The notes under the pieces: model-generated | The model's input: the letters and a program-made list of their open reading frames with translations, nothing else | Database searches by the model: none | What the model was told of the DNA's origin: nothing | Virus record (IMG/VR): IMGVR_UViG_3300023184_000094 | Coordinates: 1 to 64,000 of that record | Length of the DNA: 64,000 nucleotides | DNA from: a virus | Strand: one strand, 5' to 3' | Shown here: piece by piece, positions 47,711-64,000 of the stretch | Layout: the number at the start of each line of letters is the position of its first letter | Numbering within the stretch: the first letter of the stretch is position 1 | Made by a program: the position numbers and the translations under genes

Positions 47711-47728
47711 GGCGGCAATATCACCACC

Positions 47729-47741: not shown

Positions 47742-48056
47742 ATGAGCGATTTAGAAAAACTTACCCAAGAAATACGATTAGCTACTAACTACCAAGTTAA
47801 TAAAAGGATCCTACGTGAAAAGATCCAAACAGATCTACATGTGCCTTACAATGGTGGATTATTCAAAGCATCACCAGAGTTGATAGCATTCCTTAGTGCA
47901 TGGGACACAGATGAATTATTCTTAGAAGATACATACCAAAATCCTGTCAAGATCAATCGTAAAGAATTACTCAATAAATGCCGTGAACATTATCAGATAA
48001 CGATGAACACGTGGCACGGTCAACATGAAGACATCAAGCGTGCAAGAAAAGTCTAG
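47742..48056 (+). CDS. Conserved-looking small protein, first gene of the accessory cassette
   Basis: A 104-residue, charged, helical protein: DLEKLTQEIRLATNYQVNKR, then REKIQTDLHVPYNGGLFKAS, PELIAFLSAWDTDELFLEDT and a helical end ITMNTWHGQHEDIKRARKV. Proteins of this kind occur widely in aquatic T4-like phages, usually beside tail genes, but I know no function. The frame can be opened upstream to a TTG inside the terminator, but the ATG at 47742 follows the late promoter directly and is preferred. Its end overlaps the next gene by 32 nt. Confidence 0.7.
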   Translation: MSDLEKLTQEIRLATNYQVNKRILREKIQTDLHVPYNGGLFKASPELIAFLSAWDTDELFLEDTYQNPVKINRKELLNKCREHYQITMNTWHGQHEDIKRARKV

Positions 48057-48831
48057 AGGCATATTACTATTTGCTTTCAATACCAGCGAAATTGACTATG
48101 TTGAAATAGCTCGTCGTTCTGCACGATTAGTTACCCATACATTAAATTTACCCGTTACATTAGTCACTGAGCAAGGTACCTCCGCTGACGGATTTGATCA
48201 GGTCATATACATCGACAATACCTTGCAAAATTACAAAATAGGTGAACGTGGCGCCTGGCGCAACGGTGATCGTTGGCAGGCTTATAATCTCAGCCCTTAC
48301 GATGAAACTATATTAATAGACAGCGATTATCTTGTATTAGATCAAAATCTACTTAAATTATTTGAACAAGATTTTGATTATCGTATAATGACGCACAATG
48401 ATAAACCTGCAGGTGCTTGGGCCTTGAATATGGGATTATTTGGTCTACAATATCTCTGGGCCACGGTTATCTTATTCCGTAAAACTTCACGTGCTGGTAT
48501 GCTGTTTGATCTAGTAGGCCGTATACAACGCAATTATCATTACTATTCTAGATTGTATCATATGCGAGATCGTAATTTCCGCAATGACTATGCATTTACT
48601 ATCGCTGATAATATCTTAAATGGATATCAGCCCGGAGAACAAGGCATTCCTTGGAGTATGTTAACGTTTGCTGATGTAGTGACCAGCATCACTGAAAAAG
48701 ACGATTTACTCACAATAAAAGAAACCGAAAAAGGTTATGTGATCCCCCGTCAAAATATACATGTCATGGACAAAGGCTATCTACTCAGTGATAACTTTGC
48801 TAACTTTGTGGAAGCAATATGCGTAAACTAG
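48025..48831 (+). CDS. Glycosyltransferase-like protein (GT-A fold, DxD)
   Basis: A 268-residue protein with the layout of a nucleotide-sugar transferase. An N-terminal strand GILLFAFNTSEIDYVEIARR is followed by ARLVTHTLNLPVTLVT and a DxD metal site in ETILIDSDYLVLDQ (Asp99 and Asp101). An acceptor-side region NMGLFGLQYLWATVILFRKT follows. The closest relative in this window is the next gene, which repeats the same plan. A GTG at 48040 is an alternative start. The donor and acceptor sugars cannot be predicted. Confidence 0.7.
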   Translation: MKTSSVQEKSRGILLFAFNTSEIDYVEIARRSARLVTHTLNLPVTLVTEQGTSADGFDQVIYIDNTLQNYKIGERGAWRNGDRWQAYNLSPYDETILIDSDYLVLDQNLLKLFEQDFDYRIMTHNDKPAGAWALNMGLFGLQYLWATVILFRKTSRAGMLFDLVGRIQRNYHYYSRLYHMRDRNFRNDYAFTIADNILNGYQPGEQGIPWSMLTFADVVTSITEKDDLLTIKETEKGYVIPRQNIHVMDKGYLLSDNFANFVEAICVN

Positions 48832-49682
48832 CACATCAAGAACAGCAAGGGTTCATGTCCATAGCACAGAATAGTGATGTAGATTATCTACAGCTAGCCT
48901 ACGTGCAGGCAATGAGTGTTAAATTAACCATGCCTGGCAGCAAGTATGCTGTAGCAGTCGACAGCAAAACATTAGAATCAGTCACAGATGCACATCGTAA
49001 GGTATTTGATTACGTTATTACCATAGAAGATGATCAGGCTGAAAATGATACATGGAAGATGCGCAACGAATGGCAGGCATTTTATCTAACACCATTTAAA
49101 GAAACAATTAAGTTAGAAAGTGATCTGGTTATCACTCGTGATATTAGCCATTGGTGGCCTGCTTTTAGATTACGTAATATTGTATTAAGCACAGGATGCC
49201 GCGATTATCTTGGCCAGCTGAGTGATATCAGAGCTTATAGGAAATTGTTTGATGATAACTCTTTACCAGATGTCTACAATGGATTGATGTATTTCCGTTA
49301 CACTCCAGAAGCCGCAGAGTTTTTTTGGTGGGCTAGAGAAATATTTGAAAACTGGGAGTATGTTAGAGATAATCTATTAAAAAATTGTCGAGATGATGAG
49401 CCTACAACAGATGTAGTCTATGCTTTAGCCGCTCAGATCTTAGGAGAGGAACTCTGCACATTACCAGCAATGGATTACATAAACTTTACACATATGAAAC
49501 CAATGGTAAACAAATTTAGCCAGACATTGCCCTGGAATGAATTAGTGGTGCATGAAACAGAATTGCCGATGATACGCATCAATAATGTCAATCAATATCA
49601 TCCACTGCACTATCAAGAAAAATCCTGGGTAACTGATGAACTAGTCGAGGAATATGAAGATGAGTTGGGAAGAAGAGTTTAA
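48819..49682 (+). CDS. Glycosyltransferase-like protein, divergent paralogue (ExD)
   Basis: A 287-residue relative of the preceding gene. YLQLAYVQAMSVKLTMPGSK corresponds to the donor-binding start, and the motif KETIKLESDLVITRD has Glu100-Ser-Asp102 where the neighbour has Asp-x-Asp, so the metal site is altered but still acidic. VYNGLMYFRYTPEAAEFFWW (about residue 151) matches the acceptor side seen in phage glycosyltransferases. It overlaps its upstream gene by 13 nt. The pair may act in sequence or as a heterodimer. Confidence 0.6.
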   Translation: MRKLAHQEQQGFMSIAQNSDVDYLQLAYVQAMSVKLTMPGSKYAVAVDSKTLESVTDAHRKVFDYVITIEDDQAENDTWKMRNEWQAFYLTPFKETIKLESDLVITRDISHWWPAFRLRNIVLSTGCRDYLGQLSDIRAYRKLFDDNSLPDVYNGLMYFRYTPEAAEFFWWAREIFENWEYVRDNLLKNCRDDEPTTDVVYALAAQILGEELCTLPAMDYINFTHMKPMVNKFSQTLPWNELVVHETELPMIRINNVNQYHPLHYQEKSWVTDELVEEYEDELGRRV

Positions 49683-50019
49683 CGCGGCCATGGCCGCCTT
49701 GGGCGGCACTATAGTCCCAGAATCGATCGAGTATCGTTTGCACTATGATGATTCTGGAAAGATCATCTCGTGTAGCCAACAGAACCATCCAGAAGATACA
49801 CAATATTTGGTTGTTGATCAGGAAACCTACGCTAACTACATGAAATATAGTGTAGATGTTAAAAAGAAACAACTCAAAAAGGTTGTAATTGACCCCGGAG
49901 TGAGTGTACAATTAAAGCGTAGTAGCCAAGGTTATGCGGTTGTTCGTCAACACGCAGGATTAATTTTGGAAGAAGGTGAGACTTGGACGGAAGTGGAATA
50001 TTATGAACCAAATAGTTGA
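49660..50019 (+). CDS. Protein of unknown function
   Basis: A 119-residue protein beginning MSWEEEFNAAMAALGGTIVP, then ESIEYRLHYDDSGKIISCSQ and a beta-rich middle (YLVVDQETYANYMKYSVD) with a tail (YAVVRQHAGLILEEGETWTE). I do not recognise a domain. Two in-frame ATGs lie six bases apart (49654 and 49660); GAGG at 49646-49649 is better spaced for the second, which I use. It overlaps the glycosyltransferase genes on both sides, so it is likely to be made with them and may be an accessory or acceptor protein. Confidence 0.65.
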   Translation: MSWEEEFNAAMAALGGTIVPESIEYRLHYDDSGKIISCSQQNHPEDTQYLVVDQETYANYMKYSVDVKKKQLKKVVIDPGVSVQLKRSSQGYAVVRQHAGLILEEGETWTEVEYYEPNS

Positions 50020-50899
50020 TATAGCAGATCTAGACTGCGTCTATCTTAGTTACGATGAGCCTCGTAAGGAAGAGACTTGGATCAAAATACAGAATATGGT
50101 TCCATGGGCCCAGCGTGTAGACGGAGTTAAAGGCAGTGATGCAGCACATAAAGCCGCTGCCGATGCTAGCACTACAGATCGCTTTGTGTTGATAGATGGT
50201 GATAATATACCAGACGCTGAGTTCTTTAACTTACAATTAACACTTGATGACACTAATAAAGACTGTGTATTCCGTTGGAAGGCACGTAATACGATAAATG
50301 GCTTGATGTATGGCAACGGTGGGTTAAGTTGCTGGACTAAAGAATTTGTCTATGCTATGAAGACACATGAGAATACAGATGGCACAGAAGCTAATGATGT
50401 AGAGTTTTGTTTTTATCCTAACTATTGGGCCATGCATGATTGCTATTCAACTACGTATCCTAACGCAACACCATTCCAAGCCTGGCGAGCAGGTTTCCGT
50501 GAAGGAGTAAAGATGTGCTTAAACAGAGGCAAACGTCCTACATTACAAGAGTTTGAAAATAAAGTCGTTAGTCGTAACTATGATCATTTGTGTATTTGGC
50601 AAACTGTAGGCGCAGATGTTGACAATGGCTTTTGGTCAATATATGGTGCACGCTTGGGCACATGGATGACCATGCTGAACAAAGAATGGGATTATCGACA
50701 AGTGCAGGATTTTGATGCCCTGGCAGAGCTATGGAAAGAGTTTGAGAATGATACACCAGATCATTGCACTAGCATTGGAAATCAATTAAGACAAAAATTA
50801 AGTCTACCTATCGTAGACATGGACCCAGAAGAAAGTAAATTTTTTAAACATCACTATAAGAGTGTATTTAGAAATAAAGGAGTAATGGAACGTGAGTAA
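50003..50899 (+). CDS. Phage-type GT-A glycosyltransferase-like protein
   Basis: A 298-residue protein with a clear nucleotide-sugar binding plan: LDCVYLSYDEPRKEETWIKI, then VPWAQRVDGVKGSDAAHKAA and the metal-binding motif RFVLIDGDNIPD (Asp65, Asp67). GNGGLSCWTKEFVYAMK and PFQAWRAGFREGVKMCLN follow. Similar proteins occur in aquatic T4-like phages near other sugar genes. The ATG at 50003 is preferred over an upstream in-frame start because the conserved sequence begins there. The sugar and target are not known. It overlaps the next radical SAM gene by 8 nt. Confidence 0.72.
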   Translation: MNQIVDIADLDCVYLSYDEPRKEETWIKIQNMVPWAQRVDGVKGSDAAHKAAADASTTDRFVLIDGDNIPDAEFFNLQLTLDDTNKDCVFRWKARNTINGLMYGNGGLSCWTKEFVYAMKTHENTDGTEANDVEFCFYPNYWAMHDCYSTTYPNATPFQAWRAGFREGVKMCLNRGKRPTLQEFENKVVSRNYDHLCIWQTVGADVDNGFWSIYGARLGTWMTMLNKEWDYRQVQDFDALAELWKEFENDTPDHCTSIGNQLRQKLSLPIVDMDPEESKFFKHHYKSVFRNKGVMERE

Positions 50900-52280
50900 A
50901 AGTGAATTTATGAATGCGGCAGAAGAGATGAAAGACAAACTAGGGCATAGCCTTTGTCTAGCTAAATGGCAACAGGTAAGCCTACACTTGCCTACTGGAC
51001 TTAATAATAGTTGCTACCATCCGCCATTGCATGAGATCGATGCGCAACCATTGGAGTTCCATCCTAGTGCTTTACACAATACAGCATATAAGAAAGAACA
51101 ACGTAAAAAGATGCTCAATGGTGAGCGTCCTAAAGAATGTAACTACTGTTGGACCATGGAAGATGCTGGGCATCTTAGTGATCGTCATTATCGTAGTGGT
51201 GAGCCCTGGGCGGCAGAACACTACAATAACATAGTCGATCAACCATGGGACGCAGATGTTACTCCTAGTTATGTAGAAGTAAATTTCAGCCACGGTTGTA
51301 ATCTTGCTTGTAGTTATTGTAGCCCACAGTTCTCAACTGAATGGGGCAAAGATATTGATCGTTGGGGAGCATATCCTACAAAGAGTCCACACAATGATCC
51401 TATGCATTTTAAAGGACGTCGTCAACCTATTCCTGTGCGTGAAAATAATCCCTATGTGGAAGCATTTTGGCGTTGGTGGCCTGATCTATACGGTAGCTTA
51501 AAACACTTCCGCATGACAGGTGGCGAACCTCTGATGGATAAGAACACGCATCGCGTGTTTGATTACATACTTGCTATGCCCAAGAAAGATCTACATGTAG
51601 ATGTTACTAGTAACTTTAGTGTAGAACCAGAACTATTTAACAAATATCTAGACAAAGTAAAACAACTATGCCAGGGTGAGCGTATTGAACATTTCATGCA
51701 GTATGTAAGTTTAGACACAGGCAATCCTGATCACGCGGCTTATATTCGTCATGGACTAAGTCCAAGTCGCCTACACAGTTATGTTCACAAATATCTAACT
51801 GAAGTTCCGCATCGCAACAGCTTGACGTATATCATCACAATGAATAACCTTAGTATCTTAGGCCTTCAACAGTTACTAGAACATATACTTGAACTACGTA
51901 AGCTGTATAGCACTGAATACCAACGTGTTTGGTTTGATACTCCTGTGTTGAGAACGCCAAGTTGGCAAAGCCTGCAGATACTGCCTGAAAGTTATACACG
52001 TATATTAGAAAATGTCATCAAGTGGATGAAGTTAAATCGATTAGATGAAACCAGTGATCGTTATGATGGATTTAAAGATTATGAGATACAACGCTTAGAG
52101 CGTGATCTAGACTGGATGAAGAAAGGTAAGAAGCTAAACGAAAAGTATCTACATGATACACGTGCTGACTTTTATCGCTTCTTTAACGAGTATGACAAAC
52201 GCCGCCAAACAGATTTCCTAGCAACATTTCCACAGATGAAAGATTTTTGGCAGGAGTGTAAATGGCATGCCGAAAACTAA
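50892..52280 (+). CDS. Radical SAM protein with N-terminal twitch/SPASM-like region (subgroup 1)
   Basis: A 462-residue radical SAM enzyme. The N-terminal 90 residues carry a cysteine group (LCLAKW with Cys22, NSCYHPP with Cys41, and CNYCW with Cys83 and Cys86) that looks like half of a SPASM/twitch auxiliary-cluster site. The barrel follows with Cys136, Cys140 and Cys143 (CNLACSYC) and a GGE motif in RMTGGEPLMD near residue 209. A helical tail ends FFNEYDKRRQTDFLATFPQM. The start is the GTG at 50892, set by AAAGGAG 9 nt upstream. It is closest to the gene at 53355. The reaction and substrate are unknown; this enzyme class often modifies peptides or sugars. Confidence 0.85.
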   Translation: MSKSEFMNAAEEMKDKLGHSLCLAKWQQVSLHLPTGLNNSCYHPPLHEIDAQPLEFHPSALHNTAYKKEQRKKMLNGERPKECNYCWTMEDAGHLSDRHYRSGEPWAAEHYNNIVDQPWDADVTPSYVEVNFSHGCNLACSYCSPQFSTEWGKDIDRWGAYPTKSPHNDPMHFKGRRQPIPVRENNPYVEAFWRWWPDLYGSLKHFRMTGGEPLMDKNTHRVFDYILAMPKKDLHVDVTSNFSVEPELFNKYLDKVKQLCQGERIEHFMQYVSLDTGNPDHAAYIRHGLSPSRLHSYVHKYLTEVPHRNSLTYIITMNNLSILGLQQLLEHILELRKLYSTEYQRVWFDTPVLRTPSWQSLQILPESYTRILENVIKWMKLNRLDETSDRYDGFKDYEIQRLERDLDWMKKGKKLNEKYLHDTRADFYRFFNEYDKRRQTDFLATFPQMKDFWQECKWHAEN

Positions 52281-53352
52281 ATTAAAATCGTTTGACTGCC
52301 AGGATATAAATTATTTTGGATCAACATATCAAAATATTGAACTTAAAATTTGTAAAGAACTAGAAGAATTTTTTACTTTTGATGATTATATTCCAATTAT
52401 TACAAGATTGTTCTTTAGTTTAATGAAAGAAAATAATACAATATCAGATAAATCTGTAAATGCTTTAAAAGTATATTTAGATAGTAATCATAATACAAAA
52501 GTAATAATCCTTGATATATTCGAAGGAACTAATATAATTGATTTTATTGACACAGTTGGATTAACAAAATATTGTGAGTTAAATCAAATTTATTTTATAA
52601 CCAGCGGGGAATTGCCACAAAATTGGAAATTCGTTAATATCCATGTTTTTGCTGATCACACGTTTACAACTCATAATCAATATATGACATATACACATCA
52701 TGATGATATATTTTTAAAAACAGTGAAACCATATACGTTTTTATTTTTAAATAAGGTAGCAAGAGATCATAGACAAGCGTTAATAAATCAATTATCAGAT
52801 AAAAATCTATTAGATAAAGCATTATGGTCAGATCTGAGCCAAGGAATTAAAATATCTGATGAATATAAAGATATGTTTAATAATAATAACTATAGCGGTT
52901 TAAAAATTAATAATATTGTATTTCCTTTAAATTGGCCAGACGGCAAAATTTGCCCTGAATTATTTATTGATACATATTTTTCAGTAGTTACCGAAACTAA
53001 TTATAATAATCCATATCAATATTATACAGAAAAAATATATAAAACAATCTTGATCGGACATCCATTTATTGCTGTCTCATCTAAGGGATTTTATAAAGGT
53101 CTAAAAAATCAAGGTTATAAAACATTTGAAAATCTAATAGATGAAACATTTGATCAAATTGATGATAACGATCTTCGTTTGCGTAAAATTGTTAATTCAA
53201 TCGAATACTTATGTAAACAAGATCTAATAAAATTTTTAAAAGAAGCTGAACATATTTGTAAACATAATAGACTAACATTCTTTGAAAATTTAGGAAAAAA
53301 TCAATTTAATAATCATTATAATTTAAAAAATTTTTTAGAACAACTAAACTAA
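52267..53352 (+). CDS. Glycosyltransferase-like protein of the TEK..G.PFI type
   Basis: A 361-residue protein. Its C-terminal part contains ETNYNNPYQYYTEKIYKTIL, then IGHPFIAVSSKGFYKGLKNQ and GYKTFENLIDETFDQIDDND, a pattern resembling fucosyltransferase (GT10)-like and related phage glycosyltransferases, in which the Glu and Lys bind the nucleotide sugar. The gene at 59075 shares this block. The codon use is markedly richer in A and T than its neighbours. No signal peptide or membrane segment is visible. It begins 14 nt before the preceding gene stops. Confidence 0.65.
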   Translation: MPKTKLKSFDCQDINYFGSTYQNIELKICKELEEFFTFDDYIPIITRLFFSLMKENNTISDKSVNALKVYLDSNHNTKVIILDIFEGTNIIDFIDTVGLTKYCELNQIYFITSGELPQNWKFVNIHVFADHTFTTHNQYMTYTHHDDIFLKTVKPYTFLFLNKVARDHRQALINQLSDKNLLDKALWSDLSQGIKISDEYKDMFNNNNYSGLKINNIVFPLNWPDGKICPELFIDTYFSVVTETNYNNPYQYYTEKIYKTILIGHPFIAVSSKGFYKGLKNQGYKTFENLIDETFDQIDDNDLRLRKIVNSIEYLCKQDLIKFLKEAEHICKHNRLTFFENLGKNQFNNHYNLKNFLEQLN

Positions 53353-53354
53353 TA

Positions 53355-54716
53355 ATGCCAAAAATTAATAACGAAACTGATCTACAATATAAACGCAGAG
53401 TTATTGACATTAAGTCAGCGAGCTTCTGTGGTGCTAAATGGTACAATGCTACTATATGGTTAGGCAGCGGTCAAACCACTAGTTGTCATCATCCCTTACC
53501 GCATCAGGTAAGTATAGAACAAGTTGCGGCTAACCCTAAAGCATTGCATAATACACCGCAAAAGAAAGAGCAACGTCGACAGATGCAGGCGGGTGAAAGA
53601 CCCAGTGGATGTGAATACTGCTGGAAGATTGAAGACATGGCCAATCGAGAAGATGCATCAGATGAAATTATCAGTGACCGTGTTTATAAAACAGTAATTT
53701 ATGAGGATAAAGATTTAGATGAAGCTTTCAATACTCCACCAGAACAAGACGTTAACCTACAAACCTTGGAAATTGCTTTCGATCGCACTTGTCAGCTCGC
53801 TTGCAGCTATTGCAATCCTGCTTTCAGCACTACTTGGGTTCGTGACATTCATCGTAATGGACCATATACCAACTTGGTTTCCGACGGTCGCAACCATTTT
53901 ACTCACACTCATGATAGTAGCCAACTTTATACTATCACTGACGTTAATCCATACGTTGAAGCCTTCTTCAAATGGTGGGAATCAGACCTACACAAGACGC
54001 TCAAAGAACTACGAATCACGGGAGGAGAGCCACTCATGTCAGGATACACATGGCGACTCATCGAATGGTTCAAAGATCACCGAGGTCAGAGCAAAACACG
54101 GCTTGCCATAAACAGCAATCTAGGATTTGAACAAGATAAATTAGAAAGGTTATTAGATGCCACAGAAGGTATTGAACTGGATCTGTATACAAGCAACGAA
54201 AGCACTAGTAGACACGCAGTATATATTCGTGATGGCCTGGATTGGGATCAATGGTGTGATAATGTTACTTACTTATTGGATAGTAAAAGACTGCGTGGCC
54301 TACATGTCATGTGCACCATCAATGCCCTATGCTTACTAAGTCTTAATGAGTTCCTATGGAATATCGTTAATCTTAAAAGGAAATATGGCAGAGATAGTAT
54401 TAACTTTAGTCTAAACATCTTACGCTTTCCTAGTTTCCAAAGTGTTCTAGTATTGCCACTGAGCATACGAGAACAATATGCCAATGATCTAGCTATTAGT
54501 TATGAAATCCTGGCAGATGAGGTAGACTGTCATGAGTTTGAATTTAATCAGCTGGGCAGATTAGTTGAATATCTACGCACTCCAGAACAAGATGCGCAGG
54601 CGTTACAGGTATTGCAACGTGACTTTAAGAACTTTTATGAACAGTATGATCAACGTCGAAGCAAGAACTTTAGGGAAACATTTCCACAATTAACAGAATG
54701 GTATGACACGCTATGA
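53355..54716 (+). CDS. Radical SAM protein with N-terminal twitch/SPASM-like region (subgroup 1)
   Basis: A 453-residue paralogue of the gene at 50892. The N-terminal cysteines appear in SFCGAKW, TTSCHHPLPHQ and CEYCWKIED, with the same spacing. The barrel motif is CQLACSYC (Cys146, Cys150, Cys153), the GGE motif is RITGGEPLMSG, and both end in a shared tail (FYEQYDQRRSKNFRETFPQL). The two differ in most surface positions, so each may have its own substrate. It starts 2 nt after the preceding glycosyltransferase gene and shares a 4-nt ATGA overlap with the SGNH-like gene downstream, so these are probably produced together. Confidence 0.85.
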   Translation: MPKINNETDLQYKRRVIDIKSASFCGAKWYNATIWLGSGQTTSCHHPLPHQVSIEQVAANPKALHNTPQKKEQRRQMQAGERPSGCEYCWKIEDMANREDASDEIISDRVYKTVIYEDKDLDEAFNTPPEQDVNLQTLEIAFDRTCQLACSYCNPAFSTTWVRDIHRNGPYTNLVSDGRNHFTHTHDSSQLYTITDVNPYVEAFFKWWESDLHKTLKELRITGGEPLMSGYTWRLIEWFKDHRGQSKTRLAINSNLGFEQDKLERLLDATEGIELDLYTSNESTSRHAVYIRDGLDWDQWCDNVTYLLDSKRLRGLHVMCTINALCLLSLNEFLWNIVNLKRKYGRDSINFSLNILRFPSFQSVLVLPLSIREQYANDLAISYEILADEVDCHEFEFNQLGRLVEYLRTPEQDAQALQVLQRDFKNFYEQYDQRRSKNFRETFPQLTEWYDTL

Positions 54717-55378
54717 CAATATTAGCATTTGGATGTAGTGTAACACATGGTGCCGATCTTATATATCCTAACCAGCATGAAGCAAATATAGAATTTAGTT
54801 ATCCTAATCTTGTTGCTCGAACATTAGGAGTAGAATGTAAAAATTATGCTGTATGCGGTATTAGTAATGAGGGTATATTCCACAAAACGATCAACACCTT
54901 GGTGAGATATAAAAGTGGTGAGATCACCGCAGTGATCGTAGGATGGACTAGCACCATGAGAGAATATTGGCGCACAGATAATAGAGAATGGTTTGTTATA
55001 CCTAGTTGGTGTGCTACTGCTGAGGATAATTCTCAGCTTAATTATTTTAAAGATTATACTGATAAAGATGTTAATACATATCCTAGAATCTGTGCTGATA
55101 AAGAAGAATATATGGATCCATTGTCTGACATTTATAATATCATTACCAAATATAAATTTGATATCGAAGAATACGAAAATAAAAAAAATAATTATATTGA
55201 CATGACGAGACTGTTATGTCAAGACAAGGGTGTGCGTTTGATTGAAACCTGTTGTATGGGAACAATCGGTAGCATAGAAATTAATATAGATAATTTTGGA
55301 TCTTGGAGACAAGGAAGGAATCATCCTACAAAAAAAGATCATGACCAAGTTGCACAGCATATATTATTGACATTATGA
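54713..55378 (+). CDS. SGNH-like hydrolase domain protein
   Basis: A 221-residue protein with SGNH/GDSL-type blocks: AFGCSVTHGADL at the N-terminus, where Ser9 would be the nucleophile, a central VIVGWTSTMREYWRTD, and a C-terminal RNHPTKKDHDQVAQHI with the expected His204 in HPT. The Asp normally three residues before this His is not visible (a Gly is there), so activity is uncertain. Enzymes of this fold remove acyl groups from sugars or lipids. It is joined to its neighbours by ATGA overlaps at both ends. Confidence 0.65.
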   Translation: MTILAFGCSVTHGADLIYPNQHEANIEFSYPNLVARTLGVECKNYAVCGISNEGIFHKTINTLVRYKSGEITAVIVGWTSTMREYWRTDNREWFVIPSWCATAEDNSQLNYFKDYTDKDVNTYPRICADKEEYMDPLSDIYNIITKYKFDIEEYENKKNNYIDMTRLLCQDKGVRLIETCCMGTIGSIEINIDNFGSWRQGRNHPTKKDHDQVAQHILLTL

Positions 55379-56664
55379 ACAAACATCATTATCATACACG
55401 TAAACCTGTTTATATTAGCGAAGACCAACTACGTGAAGATCAATTAGCACGCTTAGTTGATAGTAAGGTATTCTGTATGATTCCTTGGATACACATGCAT
55501 GCCTTTCCAGACGGACGAGCATATCCTTGCTGTTTAGGTGACATGGATCACCCCATTGGTAATTTTAAACAAGATACCATGGAACAGGTATGGAATCAAG
55601 ATGCATATAAAACCATGCGTAAGAATATGTTAGAAGAAACGCCCTGTAAAGAATGTAGTAAGTGCTATGAGCAAGAAGATAGTGGGTTCATGAGTATGCG
55701 TAACAGCACAAACAAAAACTTTGGACAACATATCGGTCTGATAGATCAAACTAAAAACGATGGTGTATTTGAAGATTTTAAACTGCGCTATTATGACATA
55801 CGTTTTAGTAATTTATGTAATTTTACCTGTAGAACGTGTGGTAGTGTTTTTAGTAGTGCATGGAATACTGAGGAAACAAAATTATTTAATATAAAAAATA
55901 AAGATTCTATAATGTATGCTGGACGCAATGAAGCTGACATGTGGGAACAAATGCAAGAACATATTCCATATTTAGAGCAGATATATTTTGCCGGTGGTGA
56001 ACCACTGATCATGGAAGAACATTACCGCATACTTAAAGAACTAGTCAAGCGTGAGAGGTTTGATGTTAGATTACAATACAATACTAATTTTAGTAGATTG
56101 AATCTTAAAAATGAAGATGTGTTGGACTATTGGGGATTATTTAAGAACGTTGGTATTGGTGCTAGTTTAGATGCCATGGGTCCTCGAGCTGAATATATAC
56201 GTAAAGGAACCAAGTGGGATGATATAGTTCGCAATCGTGAACGTATGATCGAGAAATGCCCTAATACAGATTTTTATGTTAGTAGCACAGTTAGCATTTA
56301 TAACGCTCTACACGTTATGGATTTTCATCGTGAATGGGTCGACCGTGGTCTTATCAAAGCACAGGATTGGAATATTAATATTCTCCAAGGTCCAGATCGT
56401 GATCGCATCGATGTATTGCCACAGTATTATAAGCAACAAATAATTGAAAAGGTCACTGAACATATTGACTGGCTAGAACCGCAAGATCCATTACAGCGTG
56501 CTACTAGTGGTTACCGTGGTATTTTAAATTTTATTAAAGATGATCGTCGTCATTTGTTAAAAGAGTTTTTTCGTATAAATGATATACTAGATTCATATAG
56601 AGAAGAAAAATTTGAAAATATATTTTTAGAATATTCTGAGTTGAGGAATTATGTCACTACCTGA
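55375..56664 (+). CDS. Radical SAM protein with N-terminal twitch/SPASM-like region (subgroup 2)
   Basis: A 429-residue protein with the N-terminal group FCMIPWIHMHAFPDGRAYPC, then CLGDMDH and CKECSKCYEQED, which matches a SPASM/twitch region placed before the barrel. The barrel motif is CNFTCRTC (Cys148, Cys152, Cys155), with the GGE motif IYFAGGEPLIMEE. IGASLDAMGPRAEYIRKGTK near residue 261 is typical of this subgroup. Its closest relatives in the window are the proteins at 56651 and 60114. It overlaps both neighbours. Confidence 0.88.
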   Translation: MNKHHYHTRKPVYISEDQLREDQLARLVDSKVFCMIPWIHMHAFPDGRAYPCCLGDMDHPIGNFKQDTMEQVWNQDAYKTMRKNMLEETPCKECSKCYEQEDSGFMSMRNSTNKNFGQHIGLIDQTKNDGVFEDFKLRYYDIRFSNLCNFTCRTCGSVFSSAWNTEETKLFNIKNKDSIMYAGRNEADMWEQMQEHIPYLEQIYFAGGEPLIMEEHYRILKELVKRERFDVRLQYNTNFSRLNLKNEDVLDYWGLFKNVGIGASLDAMGPRAEYIRKGTKWDDIVRNRERMIEKCPNTDFYVSSTVSIYNALHVMDFHREWVDRGLIKAQDWNINILQGPDRDRIDVLPQYYKQQIIEKVTEHIDWLEPQDPLQRATSGYRGILNFIKDDRRHLLKEFFRINDILDSYREEKFENIFLEYSELRNYVTT

Positions 56665-57865
56665 AAAAATTTGTATATTACCTTGGGTTAGCATTGAAGC
56701 CAGTGCTATCGGAACAGCACGCCCTTGTTGTCTTGCCCAAGATGAAATTACCTATCGTGATGAACATGGGATTGAACAAAAATATAATCTTAAAAAACAC
56801 ACTTTAGAAGAGATATATCATAGCCCATATATGCAGCTTTTACGCAGAGATTTTTTATATGGACATAAACCAGCAACATGTAAACGTTGTTGGAATGAAG
56901 AGGCAGCAGGCCGTATAAGTAAACGCATGAACAGCAGAATTAAATTAAAAGAATATTACGACAGTGTTGAATGGCACAATTTAGATCCTAATCAACTTTG
57001 GTTCATTGATCTTAAACTAGGTAATATTTGTAATTTAAAATGTCGCATCTGCGGATCTTGGTCTAGTAGTAAATGGGCTAAAGAAGAAATGGATTATGTT
57101 CCTGGCGATAATAGAAAAGAACATTCAGCATATCTTTGGCTTAAAGAAGGTGCCTGGCCTAGAGAGTCGGAAGTGTTCTGGGATAATCTAAAGAACTTAT
57201 TACCTAACGTCAAATACTTTGAATTCACTGGTGGCGAGCCATTCCTCATTGAACAACACTTTGAATTATTGCGCTATGCTGTAGAACAGGGTTATAGCAA
57301 AAATATAGATATACATTACAATACCAATGGAACAGTATTTCCAGAAGCAGCAGATTTATGGAGTAATTTTAAACACGTTGAAGTAGCATTTAGTATTGAC
57401 AATGTAGGTGATCGCTTTGAATATGAACGCTACGGTGCAGACTGGGAAGAAGTGCAGGAAAATATTGCCAAGTTTACTGCTATGCGTAGTAGTAAAATAT
57501 CAACACAATTATGCACCACAATGAATATACAAAATGTCTACTATCTACCTGAGCTGTGCGATTGGATATCAACCCAAACGTTTGATCATGTTTACTTTAA
57601 TATGTTACATGACCCGTGGCACATGTGTATCAGTAAGATGACTCCGCAAGCACAGGAACTGGTAATTGATAGATTAACTAAACACACATTTGATCCTAAA
57701 TATCGTGCAGAGATTTTGCGTATAGTGCAATTTATACGTAATGGTGAAGGGTCAGATGGCCAAGAATTTTTGCGTAAAATGCAAACCACTGACAAATATA
57801 GAGAACAGAGTTTGCGTGATACGCATAAAGAAATAGCTGAGGCGATGGGATATGAATTCAAATAA
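56651..57865 (+). CDS. Radical SAM protein with N-terminal twitch/SPASM-like region (subgroup 2)
   Basis: A 404-residue protein of the same plan. The N-terminal CILPWVSIEASAIGTARPCC and CKRCWNEEAAG supply auxiliary cysteines, and CNLKCRIC (Cys127, Cys131, Cys134) supplies the S-adenosylmethionine cluster. The GGE motif is EFTGGEPFLIEQ near residue 196. SIDNVGDRFEYERYGADWEE near residue 252 is the usual helix after the barrel. The protein overlaps its upstream gene by 14 nt and its downstream radical SAM neighbour by 14 nt, making three radical SAM genes in a row. Confidence 0.88.
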   Translation: MSLPEKICILPWVSIEASAIGTARPCCLAQDEITYRDEHGIEQKYNLKKHTLEEIYHSPYMQLLRRDFLYGHKPATCKRCWNEEAAGRISKRMNSRIKLKEYYDSVEWHNLDPNQLWFIDLKLGNICNLKCRICGSWSSSKWAKEEMDYVPGDNRKEHSAYLWLKEGAWPRESEVFWDNLKNLLPNVKYFEFTGGEPFLIEQHFELLRYAVEQGYSKNIDIHYNTNGTVFPEAADLWSNFKHVEVAFSIDNVGDRFEYERYGADWEEVQENIAKFTAMRSSKISTQLCTTMNIQNVYYLPELCDWISTQTFDHVYFNMLHDPWHMCISKMTPQAQELVIDRLTKHTFDPKYRAEILRIVQFIRNGEGSDGQEFLRKMQTTDKYREQSLRDTHKEIAEAMGYEFK

Positions 57866-59078
57866 TAATTTAGAAAATATCTACAAAGAATTAGGAAAAG
57901 ATGTTTGTTTGTTTCCGTTCTTTGGAGGGTTTTATCAGACCCACGGGGTATCTCACATTCAATCGGTGAACAACACTATCAGACCGTGTAGTTTAATCAA
58001 AGGTACCGATAAATGGAAAGTCATTGATTCCTCCCTATTACAAACAAGAAATACCGAAAGTTGGAAAAATCTCAGGAAAAATTTCATCGAAAAATCATGT
58101 CATGACAATGCTGACTGTTTAACTTGCAGCCAAGCTGAAAGGTCAGGAGGCAATAGTCCACGGATACTAAATAATCAGTTTTATGTTGAACATTTATCAA
58201 TTGATATCGTTAAAGAAATTAAACACATTATTAAAAATGATTATCAGAGTAATAATCTTGTAAGTTTAGATTTTTTTCCGTCAAGTTATTGTAATTATGA
58301 ATGTATTATGTGTAGCGGCATCGCTTCTAGTAAACGATGGATATTTGAACGAAAGTTAAATAGTAGACTCCACGATCTAGAAATTATCGAAAATAAATCA
58401 GACAAAGATTTTTATGACATATTAAACACTGTTGAAGTTATTAATTTTACCGGCGGCGAAACGATAATGCAGAAACAAGCGCATGAATTAATGGACTATC
58501 TGATAAAAAAAGATCTTGCTAAAAATATAATCATAACTTTATTAACAAACGCTAGTGCTTATCCTAACACACTAATAGAAAAATTTAAATTATTTAAAAA
58601 TGTGTTTTATACAATTAGCATTGATGGGATTGGCGATACGATCGAATATCAACGACGTGGATCTAAATGGAAAACTGTTGAGAAAAATGCATTAAAATTA
58701 TTGGAATCAATGGGATGTACGATTAATTATGTATTAACTGCTGTAAATGTTTTTAGCATATTAGATTTTATTTCTTGGTTAAACGAACATAAGATCAATG
58801 ATAGAATTTTTATTAGTTTAGTTTTTAATACAGAATACCTTTCGATAGCTGTTATTCCCCCTGAGCTCAGAGAGTCTTTATTGAATAGATTACAACTTGC
58901 AAGATCTGTATATACTACAAATCAAGATATCATTGATAGAGTATTAGAAATATTTAATCAAATTGAATATCAACCTTCGCTACTACCTGAATTTATAAAA
59001 CATATTAAAATAGAAGATAATGCTAGTAAAAAGACACTAGCAGAAGTTGTTCCTGAATGGGCGCCATATTTTAAATGA
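57852..59078 (+). CDS. Radical SAM protein, divergent AT-rich member
   Basis: A 408-residue protein with barrel motif CNYECIMC (Cys147, Cys151, Cys154) and GGE motif NFTGGETIMQKQ near residue 198. The N-terminal cysteine region is present but altered (VCLFPFFGG, IRPCSLIKG, CHDNADCLTCSQ), so the auxiliary cluster may be bound differently. SIDGIGDTIEYQRRGSKWKT near residue 257 matches the neighbour at 56651. The gene is clearly richer in A and T than the radical SAM genes on either side, which suggests a separate origin. It shares a 4-nt overlap with the downstream glycosyltransferase. Confidence 0.82.
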   Translation: MNSNNNLENIYKELGKDVCLFPFFGGFYQTHGVSHIQSVNNTIRPCSLIKGTDKWKVIDSSLLQTRNTESWKNLRKNFIEKSCHDNADCLTCSQAERSGGNSPRILNNQFYVEHLSIDIVKEIKHIIKNDYQSNNLVSLDFFPSSYCNYECIMCSGIASSKRWIFERKLNSRLHDLEIIENKSDKDFYDILNTVEVINFTGGETIMQKQAHELMDYLIKKDLAKNIIITLLTNASAYPNTLIEKFKLFKNVFYTISIDGIGDTIEYQRRGSKWKTVEKNALKLLESMGCTINYVLTAVNVFSILDFISWLNEHKINDRIFISLVFNTEYLSIAVIPPELRESLLNRLQLARSVYTTNQDIIDRVLEIFNQIEYQPSLLPEFIKHIKIEDNASKKTLAEVVPEWAPYFK

Positions 59079-60124
59079 TAAATTTAATTAGAATAGGGTG
59101 GACTGATATTAACAAGGATTATCTAGAATGGACCTTGCAAACGCAATTTAATTTAAAAGTCTATGTAGAAAATACAAATTATAATAATTCTGAAGATATA
59201 TTCGTTATTAGTCGACCTGAATTTTATAATAAAGAAATATTAATTAGATTGTTAGATCAAGGATTTAGGCTATTAATTGTTAATTTATGGGAAGCTCGTC
59301 CATATGTATTAGCTAAAGATTTCCAACCTTATTTAGATAATATTTTAGTAGTATTAGGATGTAAAGACCCATTTAATTACGGTTGGAAAAATGTTTTGTC
59401 AGTACCAAGATGGTTTTGGTATAACGAAAGTTTGTGGTATACCTGTGATAAAAACTTCCAATATCAGAATTATATTCCGCAAAGAAAAAATACTAAATTA
59501 TTCTTTATGCCTATTAAACGTAGTAAACCTTTTAGAACACAGACCGTAGAGAGATTAACAGAGTTTTTAGACGATGCTGTATGGAGTTATGTAGAACGTT
59601 GGAATGATGGCCTACATTTACCTACCAGAGAAGAAAATCCAGTTGCACGTATTGGATGGGATCGACAGTTTGAAGCCAATTGGTATGATGATACTTATTT
59701 TACTCTGGCAGTAGAAACTTATATAGGGCAAACACCGATTGAAAACGAAATAAAAGGAATAGTTTCTGATCAAGCAGGCCCATGTGAACTTTTTGTAACG
59801 GAAAAAACATTTAAGCCTATTGCACATCAACATCCATTTATGGTCTGTGGTATGAAGGGAACATTGGCTTTCCTTAAAGAAAATGGATTTGAAACATATG
59901 ATCATATATTTGATGAGAGTTACGATACCTTAGATTTCTTTGATGTGAGAGTAGATGCACTATACGATAATATTAAAAATTTTAATAAAGAAAAATATTC
60001 TGACCCGTTGACAGAGAAAAAGATCAAACATAATTACGATCGTTTCTATGATAGATCAGCAGTGCTAGCAGGTTTAAATAATGATCTAATAGAACCTATG
60101 CTGGAGTGGATTAATGCAACCTAA
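59075..60124 (+). CDS. Glycosyltransferase-like protein of the TEK..H.PFM type
   Basis: A 349-residue protein. Its block LFVTEKTFKPIAHQHPFMVC, then GMKGTLAFLKENGFETYDHI and FDESYDTLDFFDVRVDALYD, matches that of the gene at 52267 and of fucosyltransferase (GT10)-like phage enzymes. The N-terminal half begins MINLIRIGWTDINKDYLEWT and carries a strand DNILVVLGCKDPFNYGWKNV; it is longer and better defined than in the other copy. It lies between two radical SAM genes and overlaps both, so these are probably made together. The sugar donor is unknown. Confidence 0.72.
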   Translation: MINLIRIGWTDINKDYLEWTLQTQFNLKVYVENTNYNNSEDIFVISRPEFYNKEILIRLLDQGFRLLIVNLWEARPYVLAKDFQPYLDNILVVLGCKDPFNYGWKNVLSVPRWFWYNESLWYTCDKNFQYQNYIPQRKNTKLFFMPIKRSKPFRTQTVERLTEFLDDAVWSYVERWNDGLHLPTREENPVARIGWDRQFEANWYDDTYFTLAVETYIGQTPIENEIKGIVSDQAGPCELFVTEKTFKPIAHQHPFMVCGMKGTLAFLKENGFETYDHIFDESYDTLDFFDVRVDALYDNIKNFNKEKYSDPLTEKKIKHNYDRFYDRSAVLAGLNNDLIEPMLEWINAT

Positions 60125-61430
60125 ACCGCAGACTCTCTGCCTTGCACCTTGGACGCACACCTATCTAAGTCCTCAAACTGAACGCAGAATGTGCTGTGCA
60201 AGCCGTGAACCTGCGCAGAACTTTGAACAGTATATCGATACTAGTTCAGGCACGGGAAAGTATATTCCTATTACCTTAGAAGAACATTGGAATAGCGAAC
60301 ATATGAAGTCAGTGCGCCGGCGTATGATGGCAGGCGAAACCTTGTCTGAATGTGAAGTATGCAATGACAAGTTACTCAACACAGATGTTTACAGGAGTTA
60401 TTTTAATCGACTATTTGGTCATAAGTATGATAGTATATGGGACACTACAGACGAGCATGGTTATACAACTATGAAGCCTGTAAGTTGGGATTATCGCTTT
60501 AGTAATCTCTGTAACTTTAAGTGTCGCATGTGTGGTGATATGTTGTCTAGTAGTTGGGAAACTGAGCAAAGACAGCATGACATGATCAATTGGGATAATC
60601 CAAAAAATAATTGGATGCGCCCTGAAGTCAAAAAACAAATTGAACAGTTCCAAGATACACAGATAGAACGTGAGTTCGCAGATGCAGTCGAGAACCATCA
60701 AGTAGAAGAAGTATATTGGGTAGGCGGAGAGCCTCTAATGTATGAACAACATTGGCGTTATATGAATCGCATTGTTGAATTAGGAGATGGTAAAAATGTC
60801 TATGCTCGTTACAACACAAACCTCAGCCGTGTCACTTACCGTGGGACCAATCTGTATACTGATATTCTTAGCAGGCTTCGTGATTGGCAGATATGTGCAA
60901 GTCTTGATGGTACGGAAGAAATTGGAGAATATATCCGAACAGGTCTCAGCTATCCGCAGTGGCTTGAAAACTTTAAGGAAGGTCTTAGAGTCGCTACGCA
61001 CCGTAGACAAATGAGGATTGATTTCACGCTTACCTTACCGGGTATATTTGAACTCCGTAACATTGAGAAGTTAGCTACAGAATTGGGCGTAGACATACTT
61101 GCTAAAGTAGTCTTTAGTTTTAGTCCTGATATTATCATGTCGCCCTTGGCCCTACCCAAAGAGATTTTACATCCTTGGATAGACGAACTACTGGTTAGCC
61201 AAGACCCTGCAGGATGCCTGCAAAATAGCTCGCTAAGGGACATACTAATACAGCTTAAAACTCGCCCAACCTTTGTTGAACAGTGGCCAGATACTTACCA
61301 AACTGCGGTTGCAAAAGGCAAAGCTCGTGTGCTACAATTAGAGAGGATCCGCCAAGACAAATTAACTTTGGCTGATATTTTATTAGAAAGGAAAGATGCT
61401 TTTGAGTGGTATCAATCAATCAACTGTTAA
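60114..61430 (+). CDS. Radical SAM protein with N-terminal twitch/SPASM-like region (subgroup 2)
   Basis: A 438-residue protein with N-terminal LCLAPWTHTYLSPQTERRMC, then C and CEVCNDK, barrel motif CNFKCRMC (Cys133, Cys137, Cys140) and GGE motif VYWVGGEPLMYEQ near residue 204. The sequence WDYRFSNLCNF is close to that of the gene at 55375. The C-terminal 100 residues are helical and differ from the other copies (TYQTAVAKGKARVLQLERIR). It overlaps the unknown protein downstream by 35 nt, the longest overlap in the cassette. Substrate unknown. Confidence 0.88.
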   Translation: MQPKPQTLCLAPWTHTYLSPQTERRMCCASREPAQNFEQYIDTSSGTGKYIPITLEEHWNSEHMKSVRRRMMAGETLSECEVCNDKLLNTDVYRSYFNRLFGHKYDSIWDTTDEHGYTTMKPVSWDYRFSNLCNFKCRMCGDMLSSSWETEQRQHDMINWDNPKNNWMRPEVKKQIEQFQDTQIEREFADAVENHQVEEVYWVGGEPLMYEQHWRYMNRIVELGDGKNVYARYNTNLSRVTYRGTNLYTDILSRLRDWQICASLDGTEEIGEYIRTGLSYPQWLENFKEGLRVATHRRQMRIDFTLTLPGIFELRNIEKLATELGVDILAKVVFSFSPDIIMSPLALPKEILHPWIDELLVSQDPAGCLQNSSLRDILIQLKTRPTFVEQWPDTYQTAVAKGKARVLQLERIRQDKLTLADILLERKDAFEWYQSINC

Positions 61431-62580
61431 AGTAACCCTACGTAATCCATTGGATAAAACGGATCTATTAGACTATTATATTTGTGTTTATGATAATCAA
61501 TTGGCAAAAGATTGGATTATAGCACTTAAAAAATTGTTAACTGATAAAAACCATTTAGAAAAAAATTATTGTTTTTTGGGTTTTCCTAATTCTTCAAGAA
61601 CTTTAGAATATCTTTGTGATGAATTAAATAAAGCGGTATTTCAAATAAATCTTTTTAATGCAACTGAAATCTGGCAGAAAAACGGCCTAGATAGTTATCT
61701 CATCGAAGATTATTATATACCTGATACTGTAAGATACGGCGATGAATATCCTTATATTAAACAACATGTAGCACTTGAGCCTGCACTGTTCTTTGAAAAA
61801 ACTTTGGGGTATAGAGTCAAACACGAAGTAATGAATAGATTACATAATTATTTTGAAATTTTACAAGGAATAGTCGGAGCCCAGAGTAATTATTATAAAC
61901 TAGCAGATTACGATACCAAGTATGCTATTAGACAATTAAACATTATATGTCACGAAATAGAAAGTTTGGTTTTAAGTCAGCATAAACTTAAAACAATGCC
62001 TGAATGGGTTCGCCCAAGCCAAATCACCACGTTCTTACATGCTACTCGCTACCATCTTAGTAGAGAACATAAGCACCTTGCTGTAAAAAATAGTTATGAT
62101 AGAAGATTTGGTGAAGTGTATATGCATTGGACGCAAATTGGTAAAACTTTATTCGAGGTATTTCGTGATGAAAATGCACCTCAACTTGATTCAACGACCT
62201 GTGATGCAATCACCCATTTACAATATTACAGTGGTGAATTTGATATCGAATGGGGCAATGATGTTGTTTTTGGAAATCATGTTTTTCACGACGACCAAAT
62301 AAACAGATTTCATCAGTGGATAAAAGAACAACATCTAGATAAGACTGATCCTGATTTATGCCTTGGATATTTGCCAATGGGGAGTGTCGATTTAATTCGT
62401 AGTTTTGGAACCACTGACCCAGATAAAATAAGAACATTATTGGGGGGGTATCTTGACATTTATCAAATTGAAATAGACGATATAAAAGATACATTTAATT
62501 ACTGTTGGACTGACTTAGATTACAAACAACAACAAATAGCAATGATGAAGCCAGGATATGATTACAGTAGCCGGGGGTGA
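61396..62580 (+). CDS. Large protein of unknown function
   Basis: A 394-residue protein without a domain that I recognise. It starts MLLSGINQSTVKVTLRNPLD with GAAAGGAAAG directly before the ATG and inside the end of the upstream gene. The N-terminal half has alternating strands and helices (LLDYYICVYDNQLAKDWIIA, then KNYCFLGFPNSSRTLEYLCD), and the C-terminal half has a His-rich set (HLSREHKHL, NHVFHDDQINRFHQW) that could bind metal. It lies between a radical SAM gene and an SGNH-like gene and is AT-rich. It may be a partner protein of the cassette; nothing more is visible. Confidence 0.7.
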   Translation: MLLSGINQSTVKVTLRNPLDKTDLLDYYICVYDNQLAKDWIIALKKLLTDKNHLEKNYCFLGFPNSSRTLEYLCDELNKAVFQINLFNATEIWQKNGLDSYLIEDYYIPDTVRYGDEYPYIKQHVALEPALFFEKTLGYRVKHEVMNRLHNYFEILQGIVGAQSNYYKLADYDTKYAIRQLNIICHEIESLVLSQHKLKTMPEWVRPSQITTFLHATRYHLSREHKHLAVKNSYDRRFGEVYMHWTQIGKTLFEVFRDENAPQLDSTTCDAITHLQYYSGEFDIEWGNDVVFGNHVFHDDQINRFHQWIKEQHLDKTDPDLCLGYLPMGSVDLIRSFGTTDPDKIRTLLGGYLDIYQIEIDDIKDTFNYCWTDLDYKQQQIAMMKPGYDYSSRG

Positions 62581-63109
62581 TAGTATCATATGGGGTAGTG
62601 AGCTAGCAGATAGTCCACACGGCGCCCCCAATGGATACAGTCGTAATACATTTGCTGCACTATTAGCTGGTGATGAATATCATTGCTCAGCATATCCTGG
62701 TATAGGTAACAGGCAGATCTATTCTAGGATACGTGGTGATCTAACTCAGATGCCACACTGCGGGGTCATTGTGTGTTGGACCTGGCCTAGTCGTGACAAC
62801 GAACTTGACAGCGATAAATGGATCATAGGATTACAAAAATATCTGAAATTTCATGATTATCCTTACTTGTTTACCTGTGTAGATAATTGTGTAATTACTG
62901 ATAATCCAGAGATTGATTGGGACCGTTGGTTTATGTTTCCCCCAGGAACAGAAGCCAATGAAACAATAACACCAAGAGGATTTTATCAATGGGCAGTGGA
63001 AAATAAGTATAATATAGGAGTTGATGGGCATCCTTTAGAACAAGCACATCGTGATGCAGTAACATTGATTAGGGAGAAGTTCAATGAGTTGGTTAAGAAA
63101 TCTATATAA
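62558..63109 (+). CDS. SGNH-like hydrolase domain protein
   Basis: A 183-residue protein with the N-terminal block MITVAGGDSIIWGSELADSP, in which Ser9 in GGDS would be the nucleophile, a middle block YPGIGNRQIYSRIRGDL corresponding to the Gly/Asn-containing blocks of SGNH enzymes, and a C-terminal VDGHPLEQAHRDAVTLI with a His and an Asp two residues before it. The motif pattern is better kept than in the gene at 54713. Acyl transfer or removal on a sugar or peptide is the likely chemistry. It overlaps the upstream gene by 23 nt. Confidence 0.7.
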   Translation: MITVAGGDSIIWGSELADSPHGAPNGYSRNTFAALLAGDEYHCSAYPGIGNRQIYSRIRGDLTQMPHCGVIVCWTWPSRDNELDSDKWIIGLQKYLKFHDYPYLFTCVDNCVITDNPEIDWDRWFMFPPGTEANETITPRGFYQWAVENKYNIGVDGHPLEQAHRDAVTLIREKFNELVKKSI

Positions 63110-63185
63110 TCGAATCAAACTAGAAATAGCATATCGCAAAAAATTAAAAGCGTTGCGTAAAAGAGATCCTTTTATCTACAAATAA
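63084..63185 (+). CDS. 33-residue basic peptide gene
   Basis: A short gene encoding MSWLRNLYNRIKLEIAYRKK, then LKALRKRDPFIYK. It has AGGGAGAAG just before the ATG, overlaps the upstream gene by 26 nt and ends in TAATG, which supplies the ATG of the next gene, so it fits the overlapping chain exactly. The peptide is an amphipathic, highly basic helix ending in DPFIYK; short proteins with this ending seem familiar from aquatic T4-like phages. Function unknown. It could bind nucleic acid or membrane, or could be a substrate of the cassette enzymes. Confidence 0.75.
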   Translation: MSWLRNLYNRIKLEIAYRKKLKALRKRDPFIYK

Positions 63186-63829
63186 TGCGTTTACTAACAG
63201 TTGGTGATAGTTTTACTTGGGGTCAAGAGCTAGATGATAACACATCTGCTTGGCCGTATCTATTATCTGCCCGATTAGAGTATACGTTAGACAATCAGGC
63301 CAAGCCTGGCAGTGGTAACTTACGTATGGTTAGATATGCTATAGAACATATTGATAACTATGATATGATTATTATAGCCTGGACACATTTTGCCCGTAAT
63401 GAGTTTGCTGATGATTGTGGATTTTTTGATATATGGCCCGGATTTAATTCCAAATATTTTAAAGATATTATCCCGCATAGAGTAGAATTAATTGAATATT
63501 TTAATAAACATCATAATGATGATTACATGTATAGACAGTATTTGATCAATATTATTTTACTACAAAAATATTTAATGCTTAATAATAAACGCTATCTGAT
63601 GCTAGACGCATTTGGCAATCATCAATATAGTGGGAGAAATTCAGAAAAGAATAAAGATTTATTAGAACAAATTGATTCTACTTATTTTGTCGGCTGGCCA
63701 GATAAATCGATGATGGAGTGGACCTGGGGAACAGAAATGGGTGTAGGCGGACATTTCTTAGAAGAGGGGCATGTTAAAGTAGCAGAAAAATTATTTTATC
63801 AAATGGAAAATCTTTCATGGGTAAATTAA
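63185..63829 (+). CDS. SGNH-like hydrolase domain protein
   Basis: A 214-residue protein with the N-terminal block RLLTVGDSFTWGQELDDNTS, the GDS serine of SGNH enzymes (Ser9), then KPGSGNLRMVRYAIEHI, where the Gly and Asn are the expected oxyanion residues. YDMIIIAWTHFARNEF is the third block. The C-terminal GVGGHFLEEGHVKVAEKLFY supplies the His. All four SGNH landmarks can be seen, so this is the most convincing member of the group. It is one base overlapped with the 33-residue peptide gene. Confidence 0.75.
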   Translation: MRLLTVGDSFTWGQELDDNTSAWPYLLSARLEYTLDNQAKPGSGNLRMVRYAIEHIDNYDMIIIAWTHFARNEFADDCGFFDIWPGFNSKYFKDIIPHRVELIEYFNKHHNDDYMYRQYLINIILLQKYLMLNNKRYLMLDAFGNHQYSGRNSEKNKDLLEQIDSTYFVGWPDKSMMEWTWGTEMGVGGHFLEEGHVKVAEKLFYQMENLSWVN

Positions 63830-64000
63830 TCGCAGGTGGAGATAGTTTTATCTATGGTAGCGAATTAAAAGATGGATATTATTCCCCTAGCCAATCAACT
63901 TACCCTGCATTAATAGCAAAAGAACTTGGATGGGATTATGTCTGCACTGCTAGTCCTGGATTTGCTAACAGTAGTATTCGTCGGACAATTATCGATGCAT
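63817..64000 (+). CDS. SGNH-like protein, N-terminal part (cut by window edge)
   Basis: The frame from the ATG at 63817 stays open to the window edge and encodes MGKLIAGGDSFIYGSELKDG, then SPSQSTYPALIAKELGWDYV and CTASPGFANSSIRRTII. The GGDS block and the GFANSSIR block are the first two SGNH landmarks, and the first is very close to that of the gene at 62558. It overlaps its upstream neighbour by 13 nt and so continues the operon beyond this window. Confidence 0.75.
   Translation, partial: MGKLIAGGDSFIYGSELKDGYYSPSQSTYPALIAKELGWDYVCTASPGFANSSIRRTIIDA

Follow-up and report, generated by a model that had tools for sequence, protein, structure and literature searches.

Cassettes that combine glycosyltransferases (GTs) and radical SAM genes have been noted in passing in the host-recognition clusters of pelagimyophages (PMC7029224), and both gene types are enriched in Tasman Sea viromes (PMC7150976). 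Here we describe a densely packed cassette of this composition, which starts at position 47742 of IMG/VR virus record IMGVR_UViG_3300023184_000094, next to a fibre-like gene. The window, meaning the whole stretch analysed, covers bases 1-64000 of this 72,636-base record. Judged from its genes, the module has the look of a multi-step pathway, not described before, that would produce an elaborate surface decoration.

The pelagimyophage clusters resemble it in belonging to T4-like aquatic phages and in having GTs and radical SAM genes near tail fibres, but no families, order or conserved unit are given for them. Cyanophage clusters of carbohydrate and secondary-metabolite genes, called sporadic (PMC7824862), share NodU-type carbamoyltransferases and GTs with the cassette, whereas they contain a halogenase and hydroxylases, and radical SAM goes unmentioned in that paper. 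In mycobacteriophages, virion glycosylation is carried out by phage-encoded GTs (Freeman et al. 2023, as cited in PMC12619734). As related in the citing paper, these GTs decorate structural proteins; that account mentions no radical SAM, carbamoyl or peptide parts, and the host and structure are unrelated. The “moraphage” jumbo lineage (PMC12619734) was also considered. It has core GTs too, but the word “radical” never occurs in the text, and identity with our lineage was not established.

In terms of peptide-modifying systems, mycofactocin and pyrroloquinoline quinone (PQQ) pathways also have a short conserved peptide with a tyrosine at or near the C-terminus, a SPASM radical SAM enzyme and, for mycofactocin, a GT. 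They differ from the cassette in domain order, and the cassette has no recognised RRE or peptidase and radical SAM scores far under the cut-offs of these systems. Its six radical SAM enzymes are all members of NF033640, a family defined by sequence only, of which five subclades form one unit here. Among the open-licence papers searched, none was found with a description of the module, its gene order, its peptide or the function of NF033640.

Conservation and extent of the cassette

Relatives were gathered by three routes, using g11, the fibre-like protein of each phage clade, and g06 (cassette genes are numbered g01 to g19 from 47742, all on the plus strand). Contigs recur between locus scans, and counts are hence also given as clusters. 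A total of 88 loci span the region from GT to carbamoyltransferase (64 clusters by carbamoyltransferase at 95% identity). The genes g02 (48025-48831), g06 (50892-52280) and the carbamoyltransferase (64532-65995 of the record), by whose presence these loci were chosen, are found in 88/88, and so is each of g03 (48819-49682), g05 (49976-50899), g08 (53355-54716), g10 (55375-56664), g14 (60114-61430) and the 33-residue peptide g17 (63084-63185). Next, g01 (47742-48056), a conserved protein of 104 aminoacids, is present in 83 of the 88, and g11 (56651-57865) in 80, with g10-g11 fusions in other loci.

The order of the radical SAM genes is nearly fixed, with two arrangements, 06-08-10-11-14 and 06-08-10-14-11, each belonging to one clade. 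Around this core, the presence of g04, g07, g09, g12, g13, g15, a kinase, a DegT aminotransferase and an epimerase varies among loci, and the distance from g05 to the carbamoyltransferase ranges from 7.3 to 15.5 kb. Two of these variable genes travel together: g15 (61396-62580; 394 aminoacids) occurs in 63/88 spanning loci, and g04 (49654-50019; 121 aminoacids) in 63/63 loci with g15 and in 2/25 without it. Neither has a family; g15 is highly conserved within one clade (67% mean column identity) and has no structural relative by sequence.

We found at least 580 viral stretches bearing g06. Among records picked by portal similarity alone, 16/17 carry the radical SAM family, so the module is near-universal in its lineage and not sporadic. 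The first-pass annotation had proposed a coherent multi-step pathway that would fail if the genes never co-occurred in other phages. They do co-occur, with order kept, in hundreds of viral contigs, and the pathway stands as a conserved, ordered gene set.

Named phages gave only weak homologues, in Vibrio phages K566/K567, D484-type and F86, and in a single-cell amplified marine virus. Vibrio phage K566 (255-kb record) has a cluster of 4-5 weakly related radical SAM genes (locus L087, 16543-23285) and is a possible tractable relative. HTVC008M and Mosig, representatives from the pelagimyophage comparison, lack the module in the regions examined. HTVC008M shows only weak radical SAM similarity and Mosig shows none, though homologues of the carbamoyltransferase, of DegT and of the SGNH genes are found. 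Host assignment from bins of metagenome-assembled genomes was rejected. The bins that hold contigs with the cassette belong to unrelated phyla, the contigs have the appearance of contaminating phage DNA, and the host was therefore left unassigned.

In the window, the cassette is an unbroken same-strand run from 47742 to 64000 with a single 2-nt gap. The earlier description of a packed run of at least 18 genes is right in genes, strand and packing, with two corrections. The overlaps range over 1-44 nt, not 1-35 nt, the 44-nt case lying at the start of g05, where a downstream ATG would make it shorter. As for the end, the same-strand run continues past 64000 to 68527 and is followed by two convergent sugar-nucleotide genes, so that the cassette closes at ~70.5 kb of the record.

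Enzymes and peptide of the cassette

All six cassette radical SAM enzymes predicted by the first-pass annotation are confirmed. They score 223-399 bits against NF033640, with a curated cut-off of 170 (g06 298, g08 281, g10 399, g11 337, g12 223 and g14 296 bits), and each has the CX3CX2C motif. The layout of this family (N_Twi_rSAM) places a twitch/SPASM domain N-terminal to the radical SAM domain, and Pfam finds SPASM ahead of Radical_SAM in g10, g11 and g14. In a maximum likelihood tree, built with a quick method and Shimodaira-Hasegawa-like approximate likelihood ratio test (SH-aLRT) support, g06, g08, g10, g11 and g14 fall into five clades of their own, and both main phage groups are represented in every one. 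The five were therefore distinct before these phages diverged. Cysteines of the radical SAM and auxiliary clusters are invariant within each of the five. The “many distinct” radical SAM enzymes claimed before are six paralogues of one family and not an assortment, five of them with a clade each. The sixth, g12 (57852-59078), is an extra divergent copy with close relatives only in two loci (L039 and L040). Per whole record, the number of NF033640 members goes from 6 to 16.

A single open reading frame (ORF) joins g10 and g11 in 18 loci, which form 7 clusters by g06 at 95% (for example L169, L193, L422 and L463). Where a locus holds this ORF whole, it has ~840-857 residues, and there are two junction types. 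This natural fusion suggests that the two may work as a pair. All cassette radical SAM enzymes fall far under the cut-offs of the mycofactocin, PQQ and sactipeptide maturase models (for mycofactocin, 27 bits vs 265).

Bacterial sequences from Oligoflexia are nested in the g08 clade. Pooled neighbourhoods of bacterial N_Twi radical SAM genes, compared with Pfam, contain mixed genes without a clear glycan or peptide context, and therefore give no clue to the substrate. Some bacterial contigs from Elusimicrobia and Oligoflexia (L098, L105, L096) have 4-6 clustered N_Twi radical SAM genes without the phage GTs. One homologue of g06 (G002:193107-194384, in the record of L021) has two in-frame stops, either from gene decay or from sequencing error.

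As for the sugar genes, Pfam gives no match for any of the five GT-like proteins listed by the first-pass annotation, and three of them show other, partial likenesses. The product of g03 is glycogenin-like (GT8-like), with a glycogenin-1 profile match at E=2.7e-4 over 107 residues. That of g02, GT8-like with a DSD motif, is homologous to g03 (hhalign 98.5%). For g05, a Foldseek search with the AlphaFold model places GT-A enzymes first (RmlT, SunS, GalNAc-T; best E 5.8e-4), a weak likeness with a template modelling (TM) score of only ~0.3. The two accessory genes g07 (52267-53352), with no significant family match, and g13 (59075-60124), without Pfam or PDB support, remain unconfirmed as GTs.

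Among the four SGNH-like genes, the g18 product (63185-63829) passes DUF6071 (PF19547, 32.8 bits, cut-off 27), while g09 (54713-55378), an accessory gene present in 9 loci, reaches Lipase_GDSL (PF00657) under the cut-off (E=0.0011). Similarity alone links g16 (62558-63109) to the g18/g19 homologues of cassette loci, and g19 (63817-64566 of the record) is likewise placed only by similarity. PDB profile searches for the radical SAM enzymes, the fibre-like protein, g02, g05, g13, g15 and g23 returned no useful matches.

The window of the earlier annotation ended before the core carbamoyltransferase gene, which lies just past 64000. Its product is a two-domain NodU-type enzyme with Carbam_trans_N (121 bits) and Carbam_trans_C (159.7 bits) both above cut-off, as in the NodU/CmcH definition. 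Against the NodU equivalog NF041651 it scores 130.5 bits, where more than 1000 is required. Further along the record and on the same strand lie another SGNH-like gene (65992-66795), an APS-kinase-like kinase (66792-67226) and a GT-like gene homologous to g05 (67181-68527). The convergent pair on the minus strand encodes a DegT aminotransferase (68508-69617) and an NAD epimerase (69577-70542). Carbamoyltransferase, DegT and epimerase domains all belong to the usual set of enzymes that tailor sugars.

The 33-residue ORF, which the first-pass annotation only listed, proved to be real and a universal part of the module. This cationic peptide, which ends in RDPFIYK and has ~60 homologues, is found in 102/102 loci (76 clusters) whose sequence reaches from radical SAM to carbamoyltransferase. 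Its consensus is MxWLKxLxNKIKLEIxYRKKLKELRKRDPFIYK, with D28-P29-F30-I31-Y32 invariant, and a ratio of nonsynonymous to synonymous polymorphism (pN/pS) of ~0.29 indicates purifying selection. Related peptides occur elsewhere: the single-cell marine virus AG-345-D19 has one close to a carbamoyltransferase, a Bdellovibrionia genome has one adjoining GT23 and a radical SAM gene, and in a phage-like contig one adjoins GT23. Only 1/144 Bdellovibrionota genomes has the peptide, that copy adjoining an N_Twi radical SAM gene and a g23-type gene. Among genomes of the Pelagibacter-bin family, it is present in 2/147, one of which is a cassette contig. The peptide is nearly restricted to the module. A tblastn search of phages with the 33-mer returned nothing, though the low-complexity filter may mask it, and no NCBIfam precursor model matched.

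Fibre-like neighbour, transcription and source phage

Directly 5' of g01 lies a gene (46663-47661, plus strand) for a fibre-like protein of 332 aminoacids, a candidate carrier or display protein. Threonine makes up 16% of its residues, more than in any other of the 46 proteins of window and record that were compared. A homologue occupies the same position in both phage clades, in nearly all loci with flank, and g01 adjoins it in 75/75 evaluable fibre-selected loci. The proposed tie to the fibre gene is real and nearly invariant, since g01 and g02 come next in 250/254 of the fibre copies for which over 2.5 kb of sequence follows. This adjacency is seen whichever gene is used to pick the loci. 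Among relatives, identity of the fibre-like protein goes down to 21%, while g06 and g10 keep 50% or more; such faster divergence is as expected of an exposed protein. Its AlphaFold model has a mean predicted local distance difference test (pLDDT) score of 79 and resembles three unnamed viral models, and it matched no solved fold in the PDB. We take the pairing of fibre gene and module as a lead to the substrate, not as proof.

The first-pass annotation had placed the cassette in a late operon following the fibre genes, and this part is not supported. An intrinsic-terminator-like hairpin with a T run (47681-47713, plus strand) lies between the fibre gene and g01. The exact late octamer TATAAATA has 3 copies in the window vs 8.5 expected, making it rarer than chance; all three sit 18-32 bases 5' of gene starts, and the variant GATAAATA stands directly before g01. 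A sigma70-like promoter is present in 57/147 distinct fibre-g01 gaps of relatives vs 2.4 in base-shuffled controls. From the hairpin, these promoters and the rarity of TATAAATA, the cassette is probably its own transcription unit. In 28 gaps an inverted repeat of at least 7 per arm overlaps the promoter. Gaps such as those of L210, L042 and L031 show the promoter, often with a repeat like ACTGGTTAG...CTAACCAGT across it, operator-like in appearance.

The source phage is T4-like, with portal, head protease and baseplate genes found. The nearest portals to its own are found in the jumbo phages Atu_ph07 and PA5oct (~50%), and a T4-type portal was found in 16/24 cassette-bearing records, the largest of 357 kb. 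Outside the cassette, an ORF of 4501 codons (25218-38723) separates the baseplate wedge genes from the fibre genes and may encode a giant tail protein or adhesin. A seventh radical SAM gene (10286-11299, minus strand) has its SPASM at the C-terminus, as is usual for such enzymes. It adjoins SMC/RecN-like and metallophosphatase genes, likely a gp46/gp47-type pair. An Rfam search gave no match.

Possible roles of the module

Family-level gene identities, co-occurrence, order and purifying selection on the peptide are observed. The reading that we favour, tentatively and with somewhat less than even confidence, is that this module, shared across a lineage of uncultured T4-like aquatic phages of which many are jumbo phages, would build a glycan or glycopeptide with elaborate tailoring, edited by radical steps in succession and displayed on the virion via the adjacent threonine-rich fibre-like protein. 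Substrate, reaction order and virion location are what we infer from the genes. By its domains, the module should perform sugar transfer, several radical hydrogen abstractions, acyl editing and carbamoyl addition. The two glycogenin-like GTs and the GT-A enzyme would prime and extend a sugar chain. Successive hydrogen-abstraction edits (epimerisation, dehydrogenation or cross-linking) would then come from the five paralogous N-terminal-SPASM radical SAM enzymes, with g10 and g11 acting as a pair. The SGNH enzymes may edit acyl groups and the NodU-type enzyme may add carbamoyl caps, while accessory GTs, kinase, aminotransferase and epimerase would diversify the product between phages. The peptide would be an invariable partner and serve as an adaptor or as a second substrate. 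A conserved core with variable accessory genes points to a shared glycan or glycopeptide scaffold with phage-specific caps, and the fibre link together with near-universal presence in the lineage favours display on the virion.

Some results weigh against this reading. Certain neighbouring structural proteins equal the fibre-like protein in serine plus threonine content, and its adjacency to the module could be synteny inherited vertically in a single phage lineage, with no functional meaning. The sigma70-like promoter of many relatives and the terminator-like hairpin after the fibre gene here make co-expression with late genes no more than a possibility. For NF033640, the open-licence papers searched gave no characterised activity or substrate class. 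A more ambitious version, which we regard as possible but doubtful, is that five non-redundant N-terminal-SPASM radical SAM enzymes acting in sequence, with the dedicated 33-residue peptide, would yield a radical-modified, carbamoylated glycopeptide coating the adhesin of a whole aquatic phage lineage, a new kind of viral biosynthetic pathway.

By sequence, the virion, host-surface and peptide readings are inseparable. Rather unlikely in our judgement, the module could make or edit an envelope glycan of the infected cell, blocking superinfection or changing the receptor. O-chain modification was argued for the pelagimyophage GT and radical SAM cassettes (PMC7029224) and likewise for the cyanophage clusters (PMC7824862). 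The module's own sigma70-like promoter, suggesting expression apart from late genes, fits this role, and carbamoyltransferase, DegT and epimerase are found in such clusters (Mosig). Here, however, the core is fixed and near-universal, not sporadic, and always adjoins the fibre-like gene, and the genes examined include no recognisable flippase, polymerase or lipid-linked initiating transferase.

SPASM radical SAM enzymes mostly modify peptides. It is conceivable, though unlikely, that the 33-mer serves as a precursor, with its C-terminal DPFIYK modified by these enzymes and glycosylated to give a ribosomal glycopeptide or cofactor, loosely mycofactocin-like. The presence of the peptide in every covering locus, its invariant DPFIY, the selection on it and its near absence from host-type genomes outside cassettes fit such a product. 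However, no RRE, peptidase or exporter was recognised, the enzymes miss the maturase cut-offs, no precursor model matched, five radical SAM enzymes are many for so few conserved residues, and the peptide could equally well be a helical adaptor. Lastly, phage GTs are often DNA glucosyltransferases, but hypermodification of phage DNA bases by the GTs and radical SAM enzymes is very improbable, as no DNA GT family matched, the carbamoyltransferase, SGNH and sugar-nucleotide enzymes point to glycans, and the cassette adjoins the fibre-like gene.

The module is abundant and near-universal in its phage lineage, and combines chemistry rarely found together in any virus. If virions are decorated, these phages would spend 15-20 kb on a post-translational coat; if a peptide product is made, the module would represent a natural-product pathway of viral origin. 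In both cases NF033640 is placed in a context where its function can be tested, with a constant gene order and with candidates for the substrate.

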